A DNA stretch of 49,561 nt from Deltaproteobacteria bacterium (GTDB taxonomy: Bacteria > Desulfobacterota > Syntrophia > Syntrophales > UBA8958): the NCBI GenBank assembly GCA_029553375.1, contig JAKPCH010000022.1, positions 1 through 49,561 of the forward strand, given 5' to 3'. The translations under genes and the position numbers were made by a program. The notes below the pieces were generated by a model, which searched no databases, was not told the origin of the DNA, and saw only the letters and a program-made list of their open reading frames with translations. Shown piece after piece: positions 197-41,741 of the stretch; the stretch's first letter is position 1, and every line of letters begins with the position of its first letter.

Positions 197-1363
197 TTAG
201 AGATTGGATCCCAGGATCATGATCCCGTTGAACTGGTCCACCCCCCCCATGGCGTGGGCGAGGGCCAGCTTGGCCCCCGGGATCTGGTGGTCACCCGCCC
301 TGCCCGTCACCTGCATCGCCGCCTCGGCCACCCGGATAAGGCCCGTGGCGCCGATGGGGTTCGTGCAGAGGACGCCGCCGGAGGGGTCGCAGGGGAGCTC
401 GCCCCGGCGGGTGAAGGTGCCTTTCAAGACGAGGTCCGGGGAGGTGCCGAAATCGCAGAACCCGAAGCACTCGTAGAAGAGCATCTCCTGGTAGGTGAAG
501 GGGTTGTAGACCTCGGCCACATCGAGCTCCTTCCTGGGGTCCTTGATGCCCGCCTGGTCGTAGGCCTGGCGGGCGGCCTGGATGGCGCTTTCCCAGACTA
601 CCTTGTCGCTGTCCCCGAAGAAGTACTCCTCGCCCCGGTATCCGACGCCCTTTACCCAGGCCGCCTTGCGGCCGATCCTCTTGGCCGCCTCCTCGGAGGC
701 GAAGATGACGGCGCAGGCGCCGTCGGAATTGGGGCAGACGTCCAGGAGACGGATGGGATAGGTGATGACCCGGGCGTTTTTCACGTCGTCCATGGAGACC
801 TTCACCTTCACGTGGGCGTATGGGTTGTCGAAGGCGTCGTCGTGGTGGGTGACGGAAACAAAGGCCGCCGCGTCGCGGATCTTCTCCTCGGAGATACCGT
901 AACGTGCCGTCCACATCTGGGACTGCATGGAAAAGACGCCGGGGGCGCCGGAGATGAAATAACGCTGATAGAAAGGTTCGGCGACGGTGGTCATGGTCGC
1001 CTGACTGTTCCCCTCGTTCATCTTCTCGTGACCGACGGCGAGGACGATGTCGGCCAGGCCCGAAGAGACCCAGTAGAAGGCCGTGTGGGCGATGGAAACC
1101 CCCGTGGAACCGCACGTCTCCGTCTTCAGGATGGGTTTGCCCACGGCCTGCATGGCCTCGGCGAAATAGAAGTGTGTCAGGGCGATCCCCTCCATCATGG
1201 AGGGCATGGTCCCCGAGACGACCCCGTCGATATCCTCCGGGGAAAGCCCCGTGTCTTCAAATACGCGGACGACGGCCTCCCGGACGAGATCGGGGTAGGA
1301 AACGTCCATCCTCCTGCCGTGATGCGTCTGACCGACGCCGATTATTGCCACTGCTCTACCCAT
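197..1363 (-). CDS. Thiolase-family protein (SCP2-type), retains the nucleophilic cysteine
   Basis: 388 residues. An upstream in-frame extension exists, but ATG at 1363 has a clean GGAGG site 8 nt away and gives the family N-terminus GRAVAIIGVGQT. The fold is that of SCP2/lipid-transfer thiolases. Cys84 lies in ETCGSTG at the position of the acyl-accepting cysteine. NEAF is replaced by YNPFTYQE, GHP by NPIGATG, and the C-terminal CxGGG by HAMGGVDQFNG, so the second catalytic cysteine is absent. Such proteins are usually thiolases for unusual or branched 3-ketoacyl-CoA, or lipid-transfer-like partners, and often need a DUF35 subunit, which is encoded immediately downstream. It follows a second thiolase-fold gene by 10 nt. 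Likely cytoplasmic, acting in CoA-thioester degradation; the substrate is unknown. Confidence 0.85.
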   Translation of the reverse strand: MGRAVAIIGVGQTHHGRRMDVSYPDLVREAVVRVFEDTGLSPEDIDGVVSGTMPSMMEGIALTHFYFAEAMQAVGKPILKTETCGSTGVSIAHTAFYWVSSGLADIVLAVGHEKMNEGNSQATMTTVAEPFYQRYFISGAPGVFSMQSQMWTARYGISEEKIRDAAAFVSVTHHDDAFDNPYAHVKVKVSMDDVKNARVITYPIRLLDVCPNSDGACAVIFASEEAAKRIGRKAAWVKGVGYRGEEYFFGDSDKVVWESAIQAARQAYDQAGIKDPRKELDVAEVYNPFTYQEMLFYECFGFCDFGTSPDLVLKGTFTRRGELPCDPSGGVLCTNPIGATGLIRVAEAAMQVTGRAGDHQIPGAKLALAHAMGGVDQFNGIMILGSNL

Positions 1364-1373
1364 AATCCACCTC

Positions 1374-2516
1374 CTAACTTCCCAAGATCGCAACGGCGTG
1401 GCACTGGCCGGCAAAACCGTGGACTCCGTGGGCCAGAGCGGTCTTGACCTGTTTCGGGACCTGGTGCTCCCCCGCCTCGCCCCGGATCTGGAGGAACGCC
1501 TCCACGGCCCGCTGGAGACCCCTCGAGACGTAGGGGTTGTTCGCCAGGACTCCGCCCGAGGGATTGACGGGCAGCTCCCCGTCCCGGTCCGTGAAACCCC
1601 TGTCGATCAGCTTTCCCCCCTCGCCCTCGCCGCAGAAACCGAGGTTCTCGTACCAGAGAAGCTCCTGAAAGGCGTAGGGTTCCGTGATCTCCGCCAGGTC
1701 GATCTCCCGGGCGGGGTCCTTGATCCCCGCCATGTCGTAGGCCTTCTTGGCGGCCGCGGGGAGGCGGCTGTCGAGGAGATCCCGGTCACCGATCATGTAG
1801 GCGTCGAGGGCGGAGGCGAAACCCTTTATCCACACCGGTTTTTTCGTCATCTTCGTGGCCTTCTCCTCCGAGGCGAGGAGCATGGCCACCATCCCCTCCG
1901 ACTTGGGGGCGCACTGGAGGGCCGTGAGGGGATCCACGACGAGATCGGACCTTAGGACCTCCTCCACGCTGTAGCGTCCCCGGCGGTGGGCGTAGGGGTT
2001 GAGGAGGGCGTTGCCGAGGTTCTTGACGGCGACCTTGGCGCACTGCTCCTTTTCGATCCCGTATCTCTCCAGGTACTGTTTCATCTGGAAGGCGGCGGCC
2101 ATGGTCTCCGTCAGACCGAGGGGCCGCAAATAGAAGGGATCGGAATACATGAGGGTGCACGTTTCGTTGTCGGGGTTTTCCGACCCCTTGCACAGTCCGA
2201 TGACGAGGACGGTGTCGAAATGGCCCGTCATGATCCGCATGGCCCCGTACATGAGGGCGAAGAGGGACTCCCCGTCCTGGCGGGAGGCGTTCTTGAGGAA
2301 GGCCCCCGTCGGATCCCAATAGTAGGCGTTGGCGCAGGAGATGCCCCCGTGGTAGACGTCCGAGGAGGCGCTGACGACGCTCCCCAGCTCGTCCCTCGTT
2401 ATCCCCGCCTTGTCGAGGACCTCCTTCGTGACCCGGTAGGCCTGGTCGAAGAAGTTGTCCTTCGACTCGGCGCCCGCGCTCTGAGCGACGGATACGATTG
2501 CGACTTTTCTTGACAT
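1374..2516 (-). CDS. Thiolase-fold protein lacking the nucleophilic cysteine
   Basis: 380 residues, ATG at 2516 with GGAGAGG upstream. It is a paralogue of the neighbouring thiolase: same N-terminal RKVAIVSVAQS strand, same ITEPYAFQE block and same NPSGGVLANNP stretch. The segment that should hold the active-site cysteine reads LKNASRQDGESLFAL. By ungapped alignment to the neighbour, Gln80 (or Asp81) replaces the cysteine. The C-terminal motif is HGVHGFAGQCH rather than CxGGG. It may therefore be a structural half of a heteromeric thiolase, or an Ltp2-type retro-aldolase; those enzymes have the thiolase fold without thiolase cysteines and depend on a DUF35 partner. The sequence shows the fold and the missing residue; the aldolase idea is inference. 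Confidence 0.8.
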   Translation of the reverse strand: MSRKVAIVSVAQSAGAESKDNFFDQAYRVTKEVLDKAGITRDELGSVVSASSDVYHGGISCANAYYWDPTGAFLKNASRQDGESLFALMYGAMRIMTGHFDTVLVIGLCKGSENPDNETCTLMYSDPFYLRPLGLTETMAAAFQMKQYLERYGIEKEQCAKVAVKNLGNALLNPYAHRRGRYSVEEVLRSDLVVDPLTALQCAPKSEGMVAMLLASEEKATKMTKKPVWIKGFASALDAYMIGDRDLLDSRLPAAAKKAYDMAGIKDPAREIDLAEITEPYAFQELLWYENLGFCGEGEGGKLIDRGFTDRDGELPVNPSGGVLANNPYVSRGLQRAVEAFLQIRGEAGEHQVPKQVKTALAHGVHGFAGQCHAVAILGS

Positions 2517-2539
2517 AGAACCTCTCCTTTTCCCTTTGA

Positions 2540-2995
2540 TCAGGCGGGTCTGCGACCGGCGATGATCTTCGTCGTGAAGACGATCACCGTCTCCCCCCGC
2601 TGATTCTTGACGGCGTTGTGCGCCTCGATGATACCCCTCCCGCCGTCCTTCTCCTCCAGGCCGCAGATCGTCATCTCGCAGTGGATGGTGTCGCCGATCT
2701 TCACGGGGGCCGTGAAGCGGACACCCTCCATGCCGTAGAAGGCGATGAAGCTCTTGGGGAGGACGACGTGGGGCCCCAGCCTGAAGAGGAGGGCCATCCC
2801 CACGGTAAGACCCAGCATCCCGTGGGCGATCCGCTCCTTGAAAGGCGTCTTGGCGGCGTACTCGATGTTCGTGTGCAACTGGTGCCAGTCGCCCGTGAAG
2901 GCGGAAAAGAGCACGATATCCGTCTCCGTGATGGTCCTGCCCGGGGAGACGAAGACCTCGCCCACGCCGTAATCCTCGAAATAGTTCTTCTCCAT
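2540..2995 (-). CDS. MaoC-family (R)-enoyl-CoA hydratase
   Basis: 151 residues from ATG at 2995; a GTG two codons upstream is possible, but the AGGGGG site fits the ATG better. It is a single hot-dog domain. The hydratase-2 region reads FSAFTGDWHQLHTN, with the Asp and His expected to activate water, then the central-helix motif IAHGMLGLTVGMAL. The length matches single-domain MaoC proteins, which act as homodimers. It should hydrate a 2-enoyl-CoA, presumably the product of the acyl-CoA dehydrogenase encoded 10 nt upstream, and hand it to the thiolase-fold proteins downstream. No dehydrogenase for the resulting 3-hydroxyacyl-CoA is visible in the operon. That fits retro-aldol cleavage of the hydrated product, or a dehydrogenase encoded elsewhere. 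Confidence 0.88.
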   Translation of the reverse strand: MEKNYFEDYGVGEVFVSPGRTITETDIVLFSAFTGDWHQLHTNIEYAAKTPFKERIAHGMLGLTVGMALLFRLGPHVVLPKSFIAFYGMEGVRFTAPVKIGDTIHCEMTICGLEEKDGGRGIIEAHNAVKNQRGETVIVFTTKIIAGRRPA

Positions 2996-3005
2996 GATCA
3001 CCCCC

Positions 3006-4166
3006 CTATATCTTGAAGATCTCCCTGGCCACGATCAGGCGGCGCATCTCGGATGTCCCGGCGCCGATGGTCCCCAACCTCGCGTCCCGCCAATAACGCT
3101 GGACGGGATACTCGAGGCAGTAGCCGTAACCGCCGTGGATCTGCACCGCCTCGTCGCAGATGCGACAGGCCGCCTCCGCCGCGAAGAGGATGGCCGAGGC
3201 GGCGATCTTGTGGACCTCCGTCCCCTTGCCGCCGCCCTTCGCCCTCTCGGCCAGCACGGCGGCTTTGTAGCACATGAGGCGCGAGGCCTCGATGAGGGTA
3301 TACATGTCGGCGACCTTCTGCTGGATGAGCTGGAAGGCGGCGATGGGTTTACCGAATTGGACCCTCTCCCGGGCGTATTTCACCGAGGCCTCGAAGGCGG
3401 CCTCGGCGATGCCGAGGGCGTAGGTGGCGAAAAAGGCCCTCTCCACGTCGAGGCCGCCCATCATCACGGCGATCCCGCCGTTCTCCTTGCCGATGACGTT
3501 CTCCGCCGGGATGATGCAGTCCTCCAGGACGAGCTCGCCCGTCATGGAGCCACGGTTACCCACCTTCTCCAGCTTCCGGGAGACGGAAAACCCCGGGAAC
3601 ATCGTGTCGAGGATGAAGGCCGTGATCCCCCGGGGACCCAGGTTCTTGTCCGTCTTGGCGTAAAGGACGATGGTGTCGGCGATGGGACCGTTGGTGATAA
3701 AGGTCTTCCGGCCATTGACGACGTAGTGGTCCCCTTCCCTCCTGGCCGTCGTCTGGATGCTGACGGCGTCCGAACCGGCGCCGGGCTCCGTGAGACCGAG
3801 GGCTCCGATGTGCTCGCCCGAGCAGAGGGGGGGTAGATATTTCTTCTTCTGCTCGTGACTGGCGTGGCTGTTGAGGTTGTTGCAGCAGAGATTGGCGTGG
3901 GCCCCCCACGAGAGGGCCACGGCCGCCGAGGCCTTGGCCAGCTCCTCGCAGGCGAGGGACGCCGACAAGATGTCGGCCCCGGCACCGCCGTACTCCTGAT
4001 CCACCGTGATCCCCATGATCCCGAGGGAGGCCAGTTTCTCCCAGAGTCCCTCGGGCCATTCGTCTCTTTTGTCGATCTCCTCGGCGATGGGGGCGATCTC
4101 CTTCGCCGCGAAAGCGGCGACGGTCTCCTTGAAGATCCTGTGTTCCTCGCTCAGTTGAAAATCCAT
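3006..4166 (-). CDS. Acyl-CoA dehydrogenase with isovaleryl-CoA-dehydrogenase-type catalytic Glu
   Basis: 386 residues; ATG at 4166 is preceded by GGAGGAGG. The three acyl-CoA dehydrogenase domains are complete: N-terminal helices from MDFQLSEEHRIFKE, the beta domain with GLTEPGAGSDA and NGRKTFITNG, and the C-terminal helices with RERVQFGKPIAAFQ and QIHGGYGYCLEYPVQR. The base is usually Glu in YEGTSE near the C-terminus, but here that site reads IGAGTSE. Instead Glu is present in GGLDVER, the helix-G position used by isovaleryl-CoA dehydrogenase. This suggests a branched or bulky acyl-CoA substrate. FAD-dependent, cytoplasmic, electrons presumably to ETF. It is the first gene of the leftward operon, about 50 nt below a predicted sigma-54 start. 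Confidence 0.92.
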   Translation of the reverse strand: MDFQLSEEHRIFKETVAAFAAKEIAPIAEEIDKRDEWPEGLWEKLASLGIMGITVDQEYGGAGADILSASLACEELAKASAAVALSWGAHANLCCNNLNSHASHEQKKKYLPPLCSGEHIGALGLTEPGAGSDAVSIQTTARREGDHYVVNGRKTFITNGPIADTIVLYAKTDKNLGPRGITAFILDTMFPGFSVSRKLEKVGNRGSMTGELVLEDCIIPAENVIGKENGGIAVMMGGLDVERAFFATYALGIAEAAFEASVKYARERVQFGKPIAAFQLIQQKVADMYTLIEASRLMCYKAAVLAERAKGGGKGTEVHKIAASAILFAAEAACRICDEAVQIHGGYGYCLEYPVQRYWRDARLGTIGAGTSEMRRLIVAREIFKI

Positions 4167-4226
4167 CTCCGTCCTCCTCCCTTTCCCGGTCGGTGCCGGA
4201 CGTGCTGACTTCTCCCATTTGTAACG

Positions 4227-4243
4227 CGCAATTTCGGTGCCAA
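4227..4243 (-). promoter_or_regulatory. Sigma-54 promoter of the acyl-CoA catabolic operon
   Basis: Read on the minus strand the sequence is TTGGCACCGAAATTGCG. It has the invariant GG (-24) and GC (-12) exactly 10 nt apart and almost the full TTGGCAC-N5-TTGC consensus. Transcription would start near 4216, leaving a leader of about 50 nt before the acyl-CoA dehydrogenase ATG. The adjacent gene encodes a sigma-54 activator. Confidence 0.85.
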
Positions 4244-4337
4244 CCCCCAAAAGGTGGATCCGAGGTGGCAATCCATTGATATGAATACATTTCTTACTAA
4301 AGAAGCCTTTCCCGCCCGGGCAGTTGTGAGGGTCTTT

Positions 4338-4355
4338 GTGTTAATATATCGACAC
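4338..4355. promoter_or_regulatory. Palindromic putative enhancer (UAS) for the sigma-54 activator
   Basis: GTGTTAATATATCGACAC reads as an inverted repeat (14 of 18 positions symmetric; ideal form GTGTCGATATATCGACAC). It is about 106 bp upstream of the -24 element of the leftward sigma-54 promoter, a normal enhancer distance. It also lies just upstream of the activator's own likely promoter, so autoregulation is possible. A related palindrome (13 of 18 identical) lies at 7587-7604. Confidence 0.65.
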
Positions 4356-4361
4356 TTTTCC

Positions 4362-4390
4362 TTGACTCCCCTGGGGGAGGGTGGTATCCG
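4362..4390 (+). promoter_or_regulatory. Possible sigma-70 promoter of the activator gene
   Basis: TTGACT at 4362-4367, a 17-bp spacer, then TATCCG at 4385-4390. The -35 is good and the -10 is weak. TTGTGA with TATCGA a little upstream, overlapping the palindrome, is an alternative. Confidence 0.35.
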
Positions 4391-4422
4391 AGGGGGGCCT
4401 ATCTTTTGGGAGGAGGTATGGG

Positions 4423-7400
4423 ATGGCGGTCAAAACGGCCAATCTCCAGCGTCTTTCGTCGGCGGAACGCTCGACCCTCTTTCGTTTCGCCGCTTTCCAG
4501 GACACATTCTCCATCGATTGGTTCGCCGACTTAAGGGAGGTGAAGCCCTCCCAGCTGGTCTGTGTCATTTCCTTCCTCGAGCGTCATCGCTGGGTCGCGC
4601 CGGTCAAGGAGGCAGACGGCCATTATCGCTGGACGAGGGCCTTTCCCCGGGAGGAGGTGGTCTCCCTCGTGCCGCCGGCGGAGATGACGGCCTATTATCG
4701 CCGGGCCGCGGAGATCCTCCAGAGGCACCTCCCGGAGACGGACGAGAATCTCCTCATGATCGCCCACACCTGTATCCTGGCGGGGATCGACGAGTCGGAC
4801 CGGGAGGTCATCCTGAAGGCGGCCCTCAGGGAGGAGGCCAATCACCGCATCGCCTCGGCCATTAGGCTCTACGACCACCTGTTGGCCTTCATGGAGAAAC
4901 TCGTGAGCCGGGACGAGGAGACGCCTTCACCCGAGACCTTCGGCACTTGGATGACGGCCCTCGAGCGGCGCGCCGCCCTCTCCCTCCTCCACCCCGATCT
5001 GAAACGGATCCACCCCTGGCTCACGGCGGCCCAAAAGACGGCCTCGCACCTGGGGGACGTCCGGGCGGAGGTTTCCTTGGAACTCCTCCTCGGCCAGAAC
5101 TGTTGGATGAGCTTCCAGTACGAACGGGCCGTCACCCACTTCGAGACGGCCTGGCGGATGATGGACACCGTCGACGACCCGGAGTTGCGCCGACGGGCCC
5201 TCCAGCTGCGGGGTCTCTCCTACCTCATACGGGGCGATCTCTCCCGGGCCGTTCAGGTCTACGAGGAATCCCTGGGGGAATTGGAAGAACGGGACGACGA
5301 CGACTTTTCCATGATCACGGCCCTCCATCTCTCCCAGTGCTATACCCAGCTCGGCATGCCCCAGCGGGCCCTGGGTATCTCGGAGAGCATCTACCACCAG
5401 GCCAAGAAAAACGAGAACTGGCCCCTCGTCTGCTTCTCCCTGGCCAATTCCGGTCTCATCCTCATCGAGATGATGCACTTGAAGGAGAGCCGGGCCTACT
5501 TCGAGGCGGCCATGGAGATCTGTCGGAAAGAGGCCACGCCAATGGCCGAGATCATCGCGGGCGTGGGCCTGGCGAACATCGAATGCCTGGAGGGGCGCTA
5601 CGACCGGGCGGCAAAACACTTCCAGGTCCTCTACCGGATCCGCAAGTCGAGCTGGTACCATACCCTAAATGCCTGCCACATCTTCGAGCCCGGCTTCATC
5701 CTCCACCGCCAGGGCGTCTCCCCCGTGGAACTCGACTCGGTGATCCGCTTCCTGAGCGAGTTCAGGGAAGAACAGCTCAATCCCCTCGTCTACGGGATCA
5801 TCCGGCGTCTGAAGATCCGCTACCTCGAGGAGAATGTGAAACCGGCGGACAAGATTAAGGAGCTCAAAACCATCGAGGCGTCCCTGGAAAAGACGGGGGC
5901 CCGCCTCGAGCTGGCCAAGGCGAGGATCGACCTGGCCAGGCTCTACCTCCAGACGAACCAGTGGTCCTTGGCGGAGGAGGCCGCCGGGAAGGCCTGGGAG
6001 TTCCTCAAGAGGACGGCCAAGGCGGCCTTCCCACCCGATCTGAAATCCCTCATCGACGGTGAGGAGGGCCGGGCGGAAGACCGGCTATACGAGGTCGTCA
6101 TCGAGATGGGGGAGGCCCTCATATCACAGAAGAACACGGAGCACATGCTCACCAACATCATCACCTCCATCTCCCGCCTCACGGGCGCCGAGCGGGCGGC
6201 CATCTTCATCCGGGACAAACGCTCCCCCGACTTCCGCATCGCCGCCTCGCGCAACTTCCCCCGGGACCACCTGACGGACCCGGAGTTCCGGGATATCCGG
6301 GAGATCATCCGTCTCGCCGTGACGGAAGGGGAGAGCAAGATCGTCCAACGGGAGTTGGACAAGACCGCCGACGGGGAGACGAGGAGGATCATCGTCACCC
6401 CCCTTGTCTTGGGGCGGCGCGTCACGGGCATCCTCTACCAGGACAGCCGTTTTTTCACCATCGATCTGGCCCCGGACCGTCTCCGCCTCCTCTCCGCCCT
6501 CGCCTCCCTCATCACCGTCTCCCTCGACCGGGCCCAGGCCTACGAAGAGATCGCCGGTCTCAACGCCCGTCTCCTTTCGGAATACCGACCCCCGCGGGAG
6601 GTTAACGAAGATCCCGGCCCCCTGGGCGAGATCATAGGCGCCAGCGAGGCCATGATCGATCTCAAGAATCTCATCCACAAGGTGGCGCCCACGAGGTCCA
6701 CGGTCCTCATCAAGGGCGAGACGGGGGTGGGTAAAGAGCTCATCGCCCGGGCCATCCACCGCGAAAGCGCCCGCCGGAACGGTCCTTTCATAAGGGTGAA
6801 CTGCGCGGCCCTCCCCGAGACCCTCATCGACAGCGAGCTCTTCGGACACGAGAAGGGTTCCTTCACGGGGGCCGTGCGTACGAAACCGGGTCGGTTCGAG
6901 CTGGCCGACAAGGGTACCATCTTCCTCGACGAGGTCTCGGAACTGCCCCCGGCGACACAGAGCCGCCTGTTGAGGATCCTCCAGGAGAAGGAGTTCCAGC
7001 GTGTCGGCGGGACGAAGACCCTCTATTCCGATTTCCGCCTCATCGCCGCCACCAACAAGGACCTCGAGGGGGAGATAGCCGCGGGGCGCTACCGGGCCGA
7101 CCTCTATTTCCGCCTCAACGTCTTCCCCCTCCGTGTCCCTCCCCTCAGGGAGAGGAGAGAGGACATACCCCTTTTGGCGGGTCATTTCCTCGAACACTTC
7201 TGCGCCCAGTACCAGAGTCCCCGCATGGTTATACCGCCGGCGGTGATGGAGAGGCTCGTCTCCTACGCCTGGCCGGGCAATGTGCGGGAACTCGCCAACG
7301 TCATCGAGAGGGCCGTCATCATGGGCGACCCCGACATCCGCCTCCCCGACAACCTCGCCGAGGCCGTCTCCTTCGTCGCAGAGACGACGCCCCTCCCCCT

Positions 7401-38901: not shown

Positions 38902-39786
38902 TTAGTCAACGACTTTTTGTCTCCCCTGGATCAGGATCCCCGCCACGATGAGGGCGAGGCCCAGGAGGGTGGAGGGCCGGATGACCTCCCCGACGATGCG
39001 GCTGATGAAGAAAAGGGAGAGGAAGGGGGAGAGGAAGACGAGGTTGCTCACCTGGGCCGTCGAGCGCGAGAGGCTCAGGGCCTTGAGCCAGAAGACATAG
39101 GTGATCCCCATCTCGAAGGCGCCGATGTACAGAGCGCCGAGGAGGCCCACGGCGTCCAGGGTGATCTCGGCGCCCCCGACCAACGCGAAGAGGCCGACGA
39201 AGACCGTCCCGAAACAGAAGTTGACGAAGAGCTTGAGGACCTCGTCCCGGGGGTCCTTCACGTTGTAGAGCCAGAACAGGGCCCAAACGACGGAACTCCC
39301 CACCGCCAGGGCCGCCCCGGGGATGTTGGAAAAGGTGAGGGAGAGGGGGTCGCCGTGGGTGGCCACCGTCAGGACGCCGCCGAAACCGACGATGATCCCC
39401 GCGAGTTTTCGCCCCGTCAGCCTCTGCCCCAGGATGAAAGATGACAGGATGACCACCGTGATGGGCCAGGTATAGTTGAGGGCCTGGGCCTCCTGGGCGG
39501 GAAGGAGATCGTAGGCCTTGAAGAGGATCAGATAGTAGAGGAAAGGGTTGAGAAACCCGAGGAGGGAGGACCTGAGCCATTCCCGGCGGCCCATCTTCAC
39601 CAGGAGGGGGAGTTTCCCCTGGAGATTCAGGACGGCAAAGAGCAGAAGGGACGAAAAGAAGGCGGCGAAGAGGAGCATCACGTCGAAGGGGAGACGGCGG
39701 AGGGTGATCTTGAAGGCCGAGGCCACGGTGGACCACAGCGCCACGGACAGTAAGGCGTACCCGTACGCCCTCGTCTGGATGTCCAT
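38902..39786 (-). CDS. EamA/DMT-family transporter
   Basis: 294 residues, ten hydrophobic helices in two EamA repeats (~6-140 and ~155-290). The first has GYALLSVALWSTVASAFKITLRRL and QAQALNYTWPITVVILSSFILGQRLTGRKLAG; the second ends SNLVFLSPFLSLFFISRIVGEVIRPSTLLG. Inner-membrane exporter or importer of a small metabolite; the substrate is not deducible. It is separate from the miaB operon by 58 nt. Confidence 0.9.
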   Translation of the reverse strand: MDIQTRAYGYALLSVALWSTVASAFKITLRRLPFDVMLLFAAFFSSLLLFAVLNLQGKLPLLVKMGRREWLRSSLLGFLNPFLYYLILFKAYDLLPAQEAQALNYTWPITVVILSSFILGQRLTGRKLAGIIVGFGGVLTVATHGDPLSLTFSNIPGAALAVGSSVVWALFWLYNVKDPRDEVLKLFVNFCFGTVFVGLFALVGGAEITLDAVGLLGALYIGAFEMGITYVFWLKALSLSRSTAQVSNLVFLSPFLSLFFISRIVGEVIRPSTLLGLALIVAGILIQGRQKVVD

Positions 39787-39823
39787 CAGGGGGCCCCGTG
39801 AGATCCCAGTCGCTTAGGTCTTC

Positions 39824-40222
39824 TCAGGTCTGGCTCTTTTCCTTCTCCATCCGTTTGCGGAGATGCTCCTGGATCATGCGGCGGTACTCTTCGAAGGTGA
39901 TATCGCCGTCGGAGGCCTTGGGTTTCTCCTCGGCCCCCGCCTCCGCAGGCGCCTTCGTCCCAGTGTCCGGGGCCGTGAAGACGATGCGCGGCGCCACCTT
40001 GGTCTCCACCTCGGGCGGTTCCTCGCCCGCGCCTTCCTCCAGATCGAGGCGGGCCACAACGGCCTCGAAGACGGCCTTGGCCTTCTCGATGCGGCGCTCG
40101 AGATAGGCCAGCCTCTCCTTGAGCCGCCTGATCTCGACGGCGTCCTCGTCCATCTCCTTCTTCGCCATGGCCAGGACGGTTTGGTACATGGAGGAACGGC
40201 TGCCGTCTTTTCCCTTCTCCAT
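39824..40222 (-). CDS. Hypothetical coiled-coil protein
   Basis: 132 residues, ATG at 40222 after AAGGGGG. No family recognised. Residues ~20-62 are a heptad-rich helix (EIRRLKERLAYLERRIEKAKAVFEAVVARL), ~63-105 a Pro/Glu/Ala-rich disordered linker, and ~106-132 a charged helix (FEEYRRMIQEHLRKRMEKEK). No signal or membrane segment. Codon use matches neighbours and the ribosome site is good, so it is probably expressed. Confidence 0.7.
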   Translation of the reverse strand: MEKGKDGSRSSMYQTVLAMAKKEMDEDAVEIRRLKERLAYLERRIEKAKAVFEAVVARLDLEEGAGEEPPEVETKVAPRIVFTAPDTGTKAPAEAGAEEKPKASDGDITFEEYRRMIQEHLRKRMEKEKSQT

Positions 40223-40309
40223 AAGTCCCCCTTCAAATGATGATATGACTTTCCTCTCTCACAGGGGGTCTTAAATGTCAAACATTTTGGATACAAAGGG
40301 CCGAAGGCC

Positions 40310-40338
40310 TTGACACGGCCCCACGGCGCCGCTAGATT
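40310..40338 (+). promoter_or_regulatory. Near-consensus sigma-70 promoter for the leader peptide/EamA unit
   Basis: TTGACA (40310-40315), exactly 17 bp, TAGATT (40333-40338). The usual 6-7 nt discriminator places +1 at about 40345, which is the A of the leader-peptide ATG. Confidence 0.82.
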
Positions 40339-40344
40339 GGCCCC

Positions 40345-40401
40345 ATGAACATCGTCCTTTTGCACCTCACCGCCCCCCTGCTACGCCGGTGCCTGAGGTG
40401 A
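40345..40401 (+). CDS. 18-residue leader peptide, apparently leaderless mRNA
   Basis: The frame encodes MNIVLLHLTAPLLRRCLR and a TGA stop. Six of 18 codons are Leu (CTT, TTG, CTC, CTG, CTA, CTG), with Ile, Val and three Arg; CTA and CTT are uncommon in this GC-rich DNA. No ribosome site precedes the ATG, and the promoter geometry puts transcription start on the ATG itself. The stop is about 20 nt before the first of three overlapping hairpins that end in a T-run. This is the design of an amino-acid-sensing attenuator in which ribosome stalling on the control codons selects the antiterminator. The sensed amino acid is likely leucine (or arginine); this is inference. Confidence 0.65.
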   Translation: MNIVLLHLTAPLLRRCLR

Positions 40402-40421
40402 GAACCCGTCCTTTTCCGACC

Positions 40422-40467
40422 CGCCGCCCCGGGCGGCGCAGGCGCCCTCCCGTGAGGGGGCGTTTTT
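40422..40467 (+). promoter_or_regulatory. Transcription attenuator: hairpin, antiterminator and intrinsic terminator
   Basis: Segment 1 (CGCCGC, 40422-40427) pairs with segment 2 (GCGGCG, 40433-40438). Segment 2 (GGGCG, 40431-40435) can instead pair with segment 3 (CGCCC, 40443-40447). Segment 3 pairs with segment 4 (GGGCG, 40458-40462), which is followed at once by TTTTT (40463-40467). The 1:2 and 2:3 pairings exclude each other, as do 2:3 and 3:4, giving the classic switch. It precedes the EamA gene by about 165 nt. Confidence 0.72.
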
Positions 40468-40630
40468 CTCCCCTGGCGTTTTTTACCGTGCAGGTCCCGC
40501 GATCCATCCTCCAGGAGGGGCCGACACGGCGGGGGGGCTTTACGGGGATGATGGCCACGGCGGTCGCGGTTTCCTTTGGGCCTGTCAAACCCTGCCCGGA
40601 GAAGGTGGCCGCGGCTGATCCCTGGGGGGT

Positions 40631-41509
40631 GTGACCTTGTTGTGGCTGGTCCTCTCCGTCCTCTCCGCCTTTTTCCTGGCGACGGCCGACGCCTTGACCA
40701 AAAGGTTCTTCTCTCAGTATCCCGCCTACGTCATGGGCCTGGTCCGCCTCGGTTACGCCCTGCCGTGGTTTCTCGCCTCTTTCCTCTTCATTCCCCTGAC
40801 CGTCCCTACCCCGACCTTCTGGGTCGCCGTCGCCTGCGCCCTCCCCCTGGAGGTGGGCGCCTTCATCCTCTACATGCGGGCCATCAAGATCTCGCCCCTC
40901 TCCCTGACCCTGCCCTTCCTCTCCTTCACCCCCGTCTTCATCGTCTTCACGGGCTGGCTCTTCCTGGGCGAGAGGGTCAGCGGGGGCGCCGCCGCCGGCA
41001 TCGTCTGCATCGTCATCGGGACCTGGACCCTCCATTTCTCCAAGGGCCGCCAGGGGATCCTCGAGCCGTTCCGGGCCGTCATCCGGGAGCGGGGTTCTTT
41101 GCTGATGATCCTCGTCTCCCTCATCTACGCCGTCACGGCCCCCCTGGGCAAGCTCGCCATCATCAACTCCGACCCCCTTTTCTTCGGGGCCGTCTATTTC
41201 ACGATCCTCGCGGTCCTCTTGATCCTCCTCGCCCCCTTGACGGACGGGAAGAGGACCTTCAAGACCCTCAATTGGCGCAGCTTCCCGGCGGGCGAGGCCC
41301 TGGGTCTCTGCGTCTTTCTCTCGGCCCTCTGTCATTTCCAGGCCGTCGCGCTGACGAACGTGGCCCACATGATCGCCGTCAAGAGGATGAGCATCCTCTT
41401 CGGGGTCCTCTACGGCGCCTGGCTATTTCGGGAGGAGGAGATCGGCGAGCGTCTCGTCGGTTCCCTCATCATGATCGGCGGCGTTTTCCTCATCGCCCGT
41501 TACGCCTAA
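40631..41509 (+). CDS. EamA/DMT-family transporter under attenuator control
   Basis: 292 residues, GTG start after a G-rich ribosome site. Ten membrane helices in two EamA repeats: LLWLVLSVLSAFFLATADALTKRF, PLEVGAFILYMRAIKISPLSLTLPFLSFTPVFIVFTGWLFLGE, then ILVSLIYAVTAPLGKLAI, and AHMIAVKRMSILFGVLYGAWLFREEEIGERLVG. It is not close to the other EamA protein of this window. DMT proteins include exporters of threonine, homoserine, cysteine and other amino acids. The upstream leader peptide and attenuator suggest a role tied to amino-acid supply (leucine or branched-chain?), and a stalled ribosome would raise expression under starvation, which would favour uptake over export. Substrate unknown. 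Confidence 0.9.
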   Translation: MTLLWLVLSVLSAFFLATADALTKRFFSQYPAYVMGLVRLGYALPWFLASFLFIPLTVPTPTFWVAVACALPLEVGAFILYMRAIKISPLSLTLPFLSFTPVFIVFTGWLFLGERVSGGAAAGIVCIVIGTWTLHFSKGRQGILEPFRAVIRERGSLLMILVSLIYAVTAPLGKLAIINSDPLFFGAVYFTILAVLLILLAPLTDGKRTFKTLNWRSFPAGEALGLCVFLSALCHFQAVALTNVAHMIAVKRMSILFGVLYGAWLFREEEIGERLVGSLIMIGGVFLIARYA

Positions 41510-41512
41510 TTG

Positions 41513-41531
41513 GGGGACACCATACTTAATT
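41513..41531. repeat. Possible remnant end of an IS200/RAYT-type element
   Basis: GGGGACACCATACTTAATT starts right after the EamA stop. From memory this string (and its complement ending GGTGTCCCC) flanks small REP-associated/IS200-like transposase genes in many bacteria. No transposase gene or second copy is present here. Assignment is recall only. Confidence 0.35.
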
Positions 41532-41741
41532 CGTAATGCGTCGTTTTCATTGAGAATATTTTCGGCGCAAAAGGGTCATCGTGTCCGGGCATTTCTCACC
41601 CTTTCGGCCAAGAATCCGCCGGGGTGCGATCCGCAAACCCTTGTCCGGCTGGGCTTTCGGGCCCTCAAGAACCGGGATGCCTCACCACGACAGGAATTTT
41701 TTAAAGTCGCTGATTCATCAATGATATCATAAAGCTAACCT

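Follow-up and report, generated by a model that had tools for sequence, protein, structure and literature searches.

A candidate leucine-responsive attenuator with a predicted leaderless leader peptide ahead of an EamA/DMT transporter gene

The window analyzed here (the whole stretch of DNA, 49.6 kb) belongs to a 2.4 Mb genome in 96 contigs, the sole representative of its genus in our comparison. Within this window, a promoter, an 18-codon frame rich in leucine and a T-tailed terminator, all of them real, stand in front of a transporter gene. Does a ribosome translating the short frame decide whether the transporter is transcribed and, if so, which amino acid does it sense? The features on which the answer depends are as follows.

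40310..40338, + strand: sigma-70-type promoter TTGACA-N17-TAGATT, predicted +1 at 40345
40345..40401, + strand: predicted leaderless 18-codon leader frame MNIVLLHLTAPLLRRCLR, ATG at the predicted +1, stop TGA at 40399-40401
40363..40369, + strand: segment 1, CACCTCA (codons 7-9), pairs with 40394-40400
40388..40400, + strand: segment 2, in which GGTGCCTG (40388-40395) pairs with 40439-40446 as antiterminator and TGAGGTG (40394-40400) pairs with segment 1
40422..40438, + strand: spacer hairpin CGCCGCCC-C-GGGCGGCG, a perfect 8-nt inverted repeat enclosed by the antiterminator
40439..40449, + strand: segment 3, antiterminator 3' arm (40439-40446) and terminator 5' arm (40443-40449)
40443..40467, + strand: intrinsic terminator, a 7 bp hairpin (40443-40462) followed by TTTTT
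40631..41509, + strand: EamA/DMT-superfamily transporter, 292 aa, GTG start, PF00892 E 2.6e-23, directly downstream of the leader

When both strands were scanned, the promoter was the single site scoring at least 10/12 in the window, and no other site of at least 9/12 was found within 39700-41700. Genome-wide, the pattern TTGACA-N16-18-TANNNT matched 94 times and a reversed control pattern 7 times, and thus a site of this class is about 93% likely to be something other than a chance match. Counting 7 nt from the end of the -10 element placed +1 on the A of the ATG at 40345. The first-pass annotation had described this promoter, a start on the ATG of the 18-codon frame and a leaderless leader; the first two were recovered exactly, the start as a prediction, and the third is supported by the position of the ATG and by the use that the genome makes of the same arrangement. 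Among 95 promoters examined, four had an ATG at exactly the +1 offset, including those of moeA, whose MoeA_N match spans residues 2-60, and of an HTH_17 gene. An ATG 6-8 nt past a consensus -10 element was also seen at moeA, the HTH gene, a peroxiredoxin-like gene and a gene for a probable membrane protein, often with GGCC just 5' of the ATG, and these four genes probably give leaderless mRNAs. Because such genes share the -10/N6/ATG layout, a leaderless start appears to be ordinary in this genome. If transcription does begin at 40345, as predicted together with the translation of the frame, a Shine-Dalgarno sequence is impossible for the leader.

The leader had been described as rich in leucine, and it contains six Leu among the 17 codons after Met, an enrichment in a single amino acid that was reached in 0.23% of dinucleotide shuffles (P 0.0023). 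It was also the only frame with at least one-third Leu among the 354 in the window that begin with ATG and span 10-30 codons. Half of its Leu codons are rare ones: CTA, CTT and TTG, each present once in the leader, made up 2/398, 17/398 and 28/398 in eight window genes. The Leu codons at positions 5, 6, 8 and 12 precede the switch point described below, the Leu5-Leu6 pair being CTT TTG, both uncommon, and the Arg codons at positions 14, 15 and 18 fall past it.

The terminator hairpin (40443-40449 with 40456-40462) had a computed stability of -11.6 kcal/mol as a simple hairpin, and a second T-run, TTTTTT, begins at 40479. Competing pairings could be recognized upstream: segment 1 forms a perfect 7 bp pairing with the end of segment 2 (hairpin 40363-40400, -13.1 kcal/mol), and the antiterminator comprises 8 bp. 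The nested pairing architecture was matched in 11/400 shuffles. Fold stability was ordinary, with a z of -1.2 for 296 nt and 102/1000 shuffles equally stable for 128 nt, and Rfam covariance models gave no match at gathering, only chance-level ones (E at least 0.47). An 81-codon GTG frame (40389-40634, + strand) crosses this region, its end overlapping the transporter's GTG start; it is probably fortuitous. The hairpins first proposed for this locus were partly correct: the terminator at 40443-40467 and the inverted repeat at 40422-40438 (there called 1:2) are real, but the 2:3 pairing (40431-40447, -9.3) is weak and loses to 1:2 (-12.8). Moreover, 40422-40438 cannot respond to translation, because a ribosome on the stop codon covers the RNA to about 40411. 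As a regulatory set, these stems were rejected on geometry, stem 1 beginning 21 nt past the stop. A competing set that can work is made up of 40363-40369, 40388-40400, 40439-40449 and 40456-40465.

How the terminator responds to the place of the ribosome was computed by folding the RNA downstream of the ribosome alone while the P-site was moved codon by codon. Terminator probability stayed at about 0 as long as the P-site was in codons 1-10 and reached 0.83-0.91 once it stood at codon 12 or beyond, which places the switch at codon 11/12; footprints varied from 12 to 16 nt kept this transition between codons 10 and 12. Mutually exclusive pairings were found within reach of the ribosome, switching at the control codons. 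An equal or larger amplitude was obtained in 17/1200 dinucleotide shuffles, 20/684 GC-matched genomic hybrids and 6/600 frame-only shuffles (1-3% of controls overall). This switching, and not fold stability, is the feature that distinguishes the leader. In the computed fold without a ribosome the antiterminator was the equilibrium structure, and at the stage when segment 4 has not yet emerged, segment 3 pairing was affected modestly (0.58 versus 0.24). It should be noted that the switch layout and statistics were chosen after the sequence was seen, in G+C-rich DNA, and that the position-dependent test replaced a cruder one in which the strength of pairing between upstream RNA and the terminator arm was scored, ribosome position was ignored and no signal was seen (888/1000 shuffles at least as strong). 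Since the later test was designed with the layout in view and the earlier one was null, the switch statistics provide moderate evidence for attenuation.

Based on these observations, we favor a leucine-responsive, ribosome-mediated transcription attenuator with a leaderless Leu-rich leader that would control the EamA/DMT transporter at 40631, to which we assign a probability of about 0.55. RNA polymerase would start at 40345 and a ribosome would load straight onto the 5' AUG. When charged Leu-tRNA is scarce, the ribosome would pause at Leu5-Leu6, Leu8 or Leu12, covering or disrupting segment 1 and leaving 40388-40395 free for 40439-40446; with these paired, no terminator would form and the transporter would be transcribed. 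When leucine is plentiful, the ribosome would reach the stop and cover 40388-40400, and 40443-40462 would fold as the terminator. Leucine is the likeliest signal, because Leu codons 5, 6, 8 and 12 precede the switch, which falls at Leu12-Leu13. Of the two signals suggested originally, leucine or branched-chain amino acids and arginine, leucine alone is favored; a ribosome stalled at the Arg codons, which come after the switch, would cause termination. The proposed trp/leu-type attenuation is likewise retained in kind, given the rarity of such a switch among controls and three attenuators elsewhere in the genome, but with different stems.

These three attenuators lie ahead of genes of branched-chain metabolism. 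The cimA gene (citramalate synthase, TIGR00977, 768.8 bits) is preceded by the leader MTRNTGIIIGRGIIIRPVT and a strong terminator, ilvB (825 bits) by MTFTAKKIDVPRGVVVVIVGGGTAARCV and a terminator, and a 2-oxoacid:ferredoxin oxidoreductase operon by MKVREGKGENGALRLSLRLRLSLLLLGERPGTRRF with the terminator AAGGCCATGG...CCATGGCCTTTT. The first is a textbook Ile attenuator (IIIGRGIII; locus L039, 1292-1489), the second a Val/Ile attenuator (VVVVIV; locus L132, about 1222-1491), and the third stands before four genes (gamma, ferredoxin-like, alpha and beta) on contig C64 (locus L180, about 1318-4546). In all three, the computed switch fell at or just past the last control codon: at 17/18 after Ile13-15 in cimA, at 19/20 after Val/Ile14-19 in ilvB and at 27/28 after a Leu run to 26 in the oxidoreductase leader. 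Our first automatic architecture search missed the visible cimA pairing, its arm limits being too narrow, and the position-dependent test recovered the cimA switch. All attenuators found elsewhere in the genome sense branched-chain amino acids. No LeuA-type synthase scored above cut-off in this genome, only CimA and lyase- and carboxylase-type relatives, and about half of 60 relatives also lacked LeuA. Since the genome carries Ile, Val/Ile and Leu attenuators and is without LeuA, a Leu attenuator is plausible at the window locus.

Across the order, the terminator AAGGCCATGG-N3-14-CATGGCCTTTT was identified in 76/154 genomes, with no control matches. It lies 3' of Leu leaders (leuA, oxidoreductase) and of aromatic leaders, the latter ahead of genes named by eye as DAHP-synthase-like, tryptophan-synthase-beta-like and tyrosine phenol-lyase/tryptophanase-like; one terminator sequence is common to attenuators for different amino acids. 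A conserved Leu leader with the AAGGCCATGG terminator precedes at least the gamma-subunit gene in several relatives (nine loci), and the same leader precedes leuA in others. Its position ahead of the oxidoreductase in LeuA-less genomes, the present one among them, suggests that leucine is made from isovalerate under a retained Leu attenuation, presumably via reductive carboxylation of isovaleryl-CoA. With leucine made in this way, a transporter likewise under Leu control would not be out of place. The window leader has neither the AAGGCCATGG...CATGGCCTTTT terminator, whose single match in the genome is on C64, outside the window, nor a Leu run. Descent from the Leu attenuator of the order is unsupported, as terminator and Leu layout both differ.

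With respect to the transporter itself, its expression must pass the terminator, because this element separates the gene from its only good promoter. From the terminator to the gene start the distance is 164 nt; for the clear attenuators of the genome and order it amounts to some tens of nt. The protein reached none of the NCBIfam equivalogs (best TIGR03340, 67.6 bits versus a cut-off of 288). A second EamA/DMT transporter (38902-39786, - strand) adjoins the first and shows a weak YddG match (66.8 bits versus a cut-off of 300); an orphan 132-aa frame (39824-40222) between the two was absent from the family among the relatives searched. Conservation and covariation of the leader in related genomes had been put forward as a check on the attenuation proposal. 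Homologues of the transporter were drawn from the order, the class and a sample of the phylum, all of them distant relatives at most 55% identical, and leader plus terminator were absent upstream of all 44 with readable upstream DNA. A search with the leader peptide in 155 genomes of the order gave weak matches only (E 0.8-1.0), and the gene order around the transporter was not conserved. When relatives were compared by eye, presence of the transporter showed no clear association with absence of LeuA, and a literature search returned no relevant report of an EamA gene under leader-peptide attenuation. Membership of the attenuator class is accordingly not fully established, conservation having been sought and not found in distant relatives and translation of the leader being predicted.

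Such a distribution could also be explained without any translational regulation. The promoter and terminator, which delimit a short unit separated from the gene by a long gap, would give an RNA of about 125 nt, which might be an sRNA or else a terminated transcript that allows some read-through; frame and pairings would have arisen by chance in G+C-rich sequence. Ordinary fold stability and a leader conserved at 0/44 homologues (at most 55% identity) agree with this explanation, but an ATG exactly at +1, the Leu excess and the switch amplitude are each improbable by chance and no Rfam family matched; we regard it as unlikely, if worth keeping in mind. If the locus is instead a relic, formerly the attenuator of another gene and now without effect ahead of an unrelated transporter, the unconserved gene order would be expected, and the Leu attenuator of the order does move between genes, being found at leuA in some genomes and at the oxidoreductase operon in others. 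However, the window leader is unlike both that Leu leader and the terminator that goes with it, its own switch is intact and the gene has no other promoter, all of which make a relic very improbable.

A closer competitor in mechanism keeps the translation-dependent attenuator and drops leucine: any early slowdown of the ribosome, caused by general starvation, a ribosome-targeting compound or poor leaderless initiation, would lead to read-through, and the Leu richness would be incidental. The computed switch follows ribosome position rather than Leu itself, and the computation predicts read-through without a ribosome as well. In addition, the transporter could be an exporter, and precedents exist for leaders that control efflux-type or resistance genes, for example at the resistance gene msrD (PMC10314930), as well as for action of the trans-acting peTrpL peptide on smeAB (PMC7298713). 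Nevertheless, the Leu excess (P 0.002), with half of the Leu codons rare, and the restriction of the other attenuators found in this genome to branched-chain amino acids speak against a leucine-independent device, which seems to us rather improbable. Under the leucine-responsive attenuator that we prefer, the transporter might act in the metabolism of leucine or of branched-chain compounds, although the step that the first-pass annotation took from the leader codons to its substrate class is conjecture. Taken further, leucine starvation might switch on a DMT transporter in a LeuA-less bacterium through attenuation alone, with a scavenging function for leucine or branched-chain amino acids or a function in isovalerate handling; this extension is tentative and rather doubtful. 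If the attenuator is real, its regulation hints at what a widespread group of transporters carries, and the transporter would join the branched-chain genes (ilvB, cimA, leuA or the 2-oxoacid oxidoreductase) apparently run by ribosome-mediated attenuation in this lineage.

Ribosome-mediated attenuators of the leu/ilv/trp type are represented by leuL, ilvL and trpL of E. coli, and the principle is textbook. The window leader shares with these, and with the cimA, ilvB and oxidoreductase leaders of its own genome, a short frame enriched in a single amino acid, hairpins that compete, a T-tailed terminator and a switch near the control codons. It differs from them in its transporter target, unusual for such an attenuator, its predicted leaderless start, its scattered control codons (Leu runs being typical of the conserved Leu leader of the order), a segment 2 inside the frame, as in the ilvB leader of the genome, and the long distance from terminator to gene. 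In tnaC, the ligand is sensed by nascent-peptide arrest. Leader translation controls a transporter (tnaB) in tnaC-tnaAB and a resistance gene in the macrolide-responsive msrD leader (PMC10314930), which is a likeness to the window leader; both of these respond to a ligand through such arrest, whereas the window leader is proposed to sense Leu-tRNA supply. A precedent for a leaderless leader in an attenuator is trpL of Sinorhizobium meliloti, where the 5' end of the attenuator RNA (rnTrpL) is the ATG of the leader frame (PMC7298713). The window leader resembles it in its predicted leaderless peptide; trpL, in contrast, senses Trp ahead of trpE(G), and its 14-aa peptide and RNA also act in trans (PMC7298713), whereas action in cis only is proposed here. 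Our reading, if correct, would supply one more example of attenuation by a leaderless leader peptide, in this instance beyond trpL.
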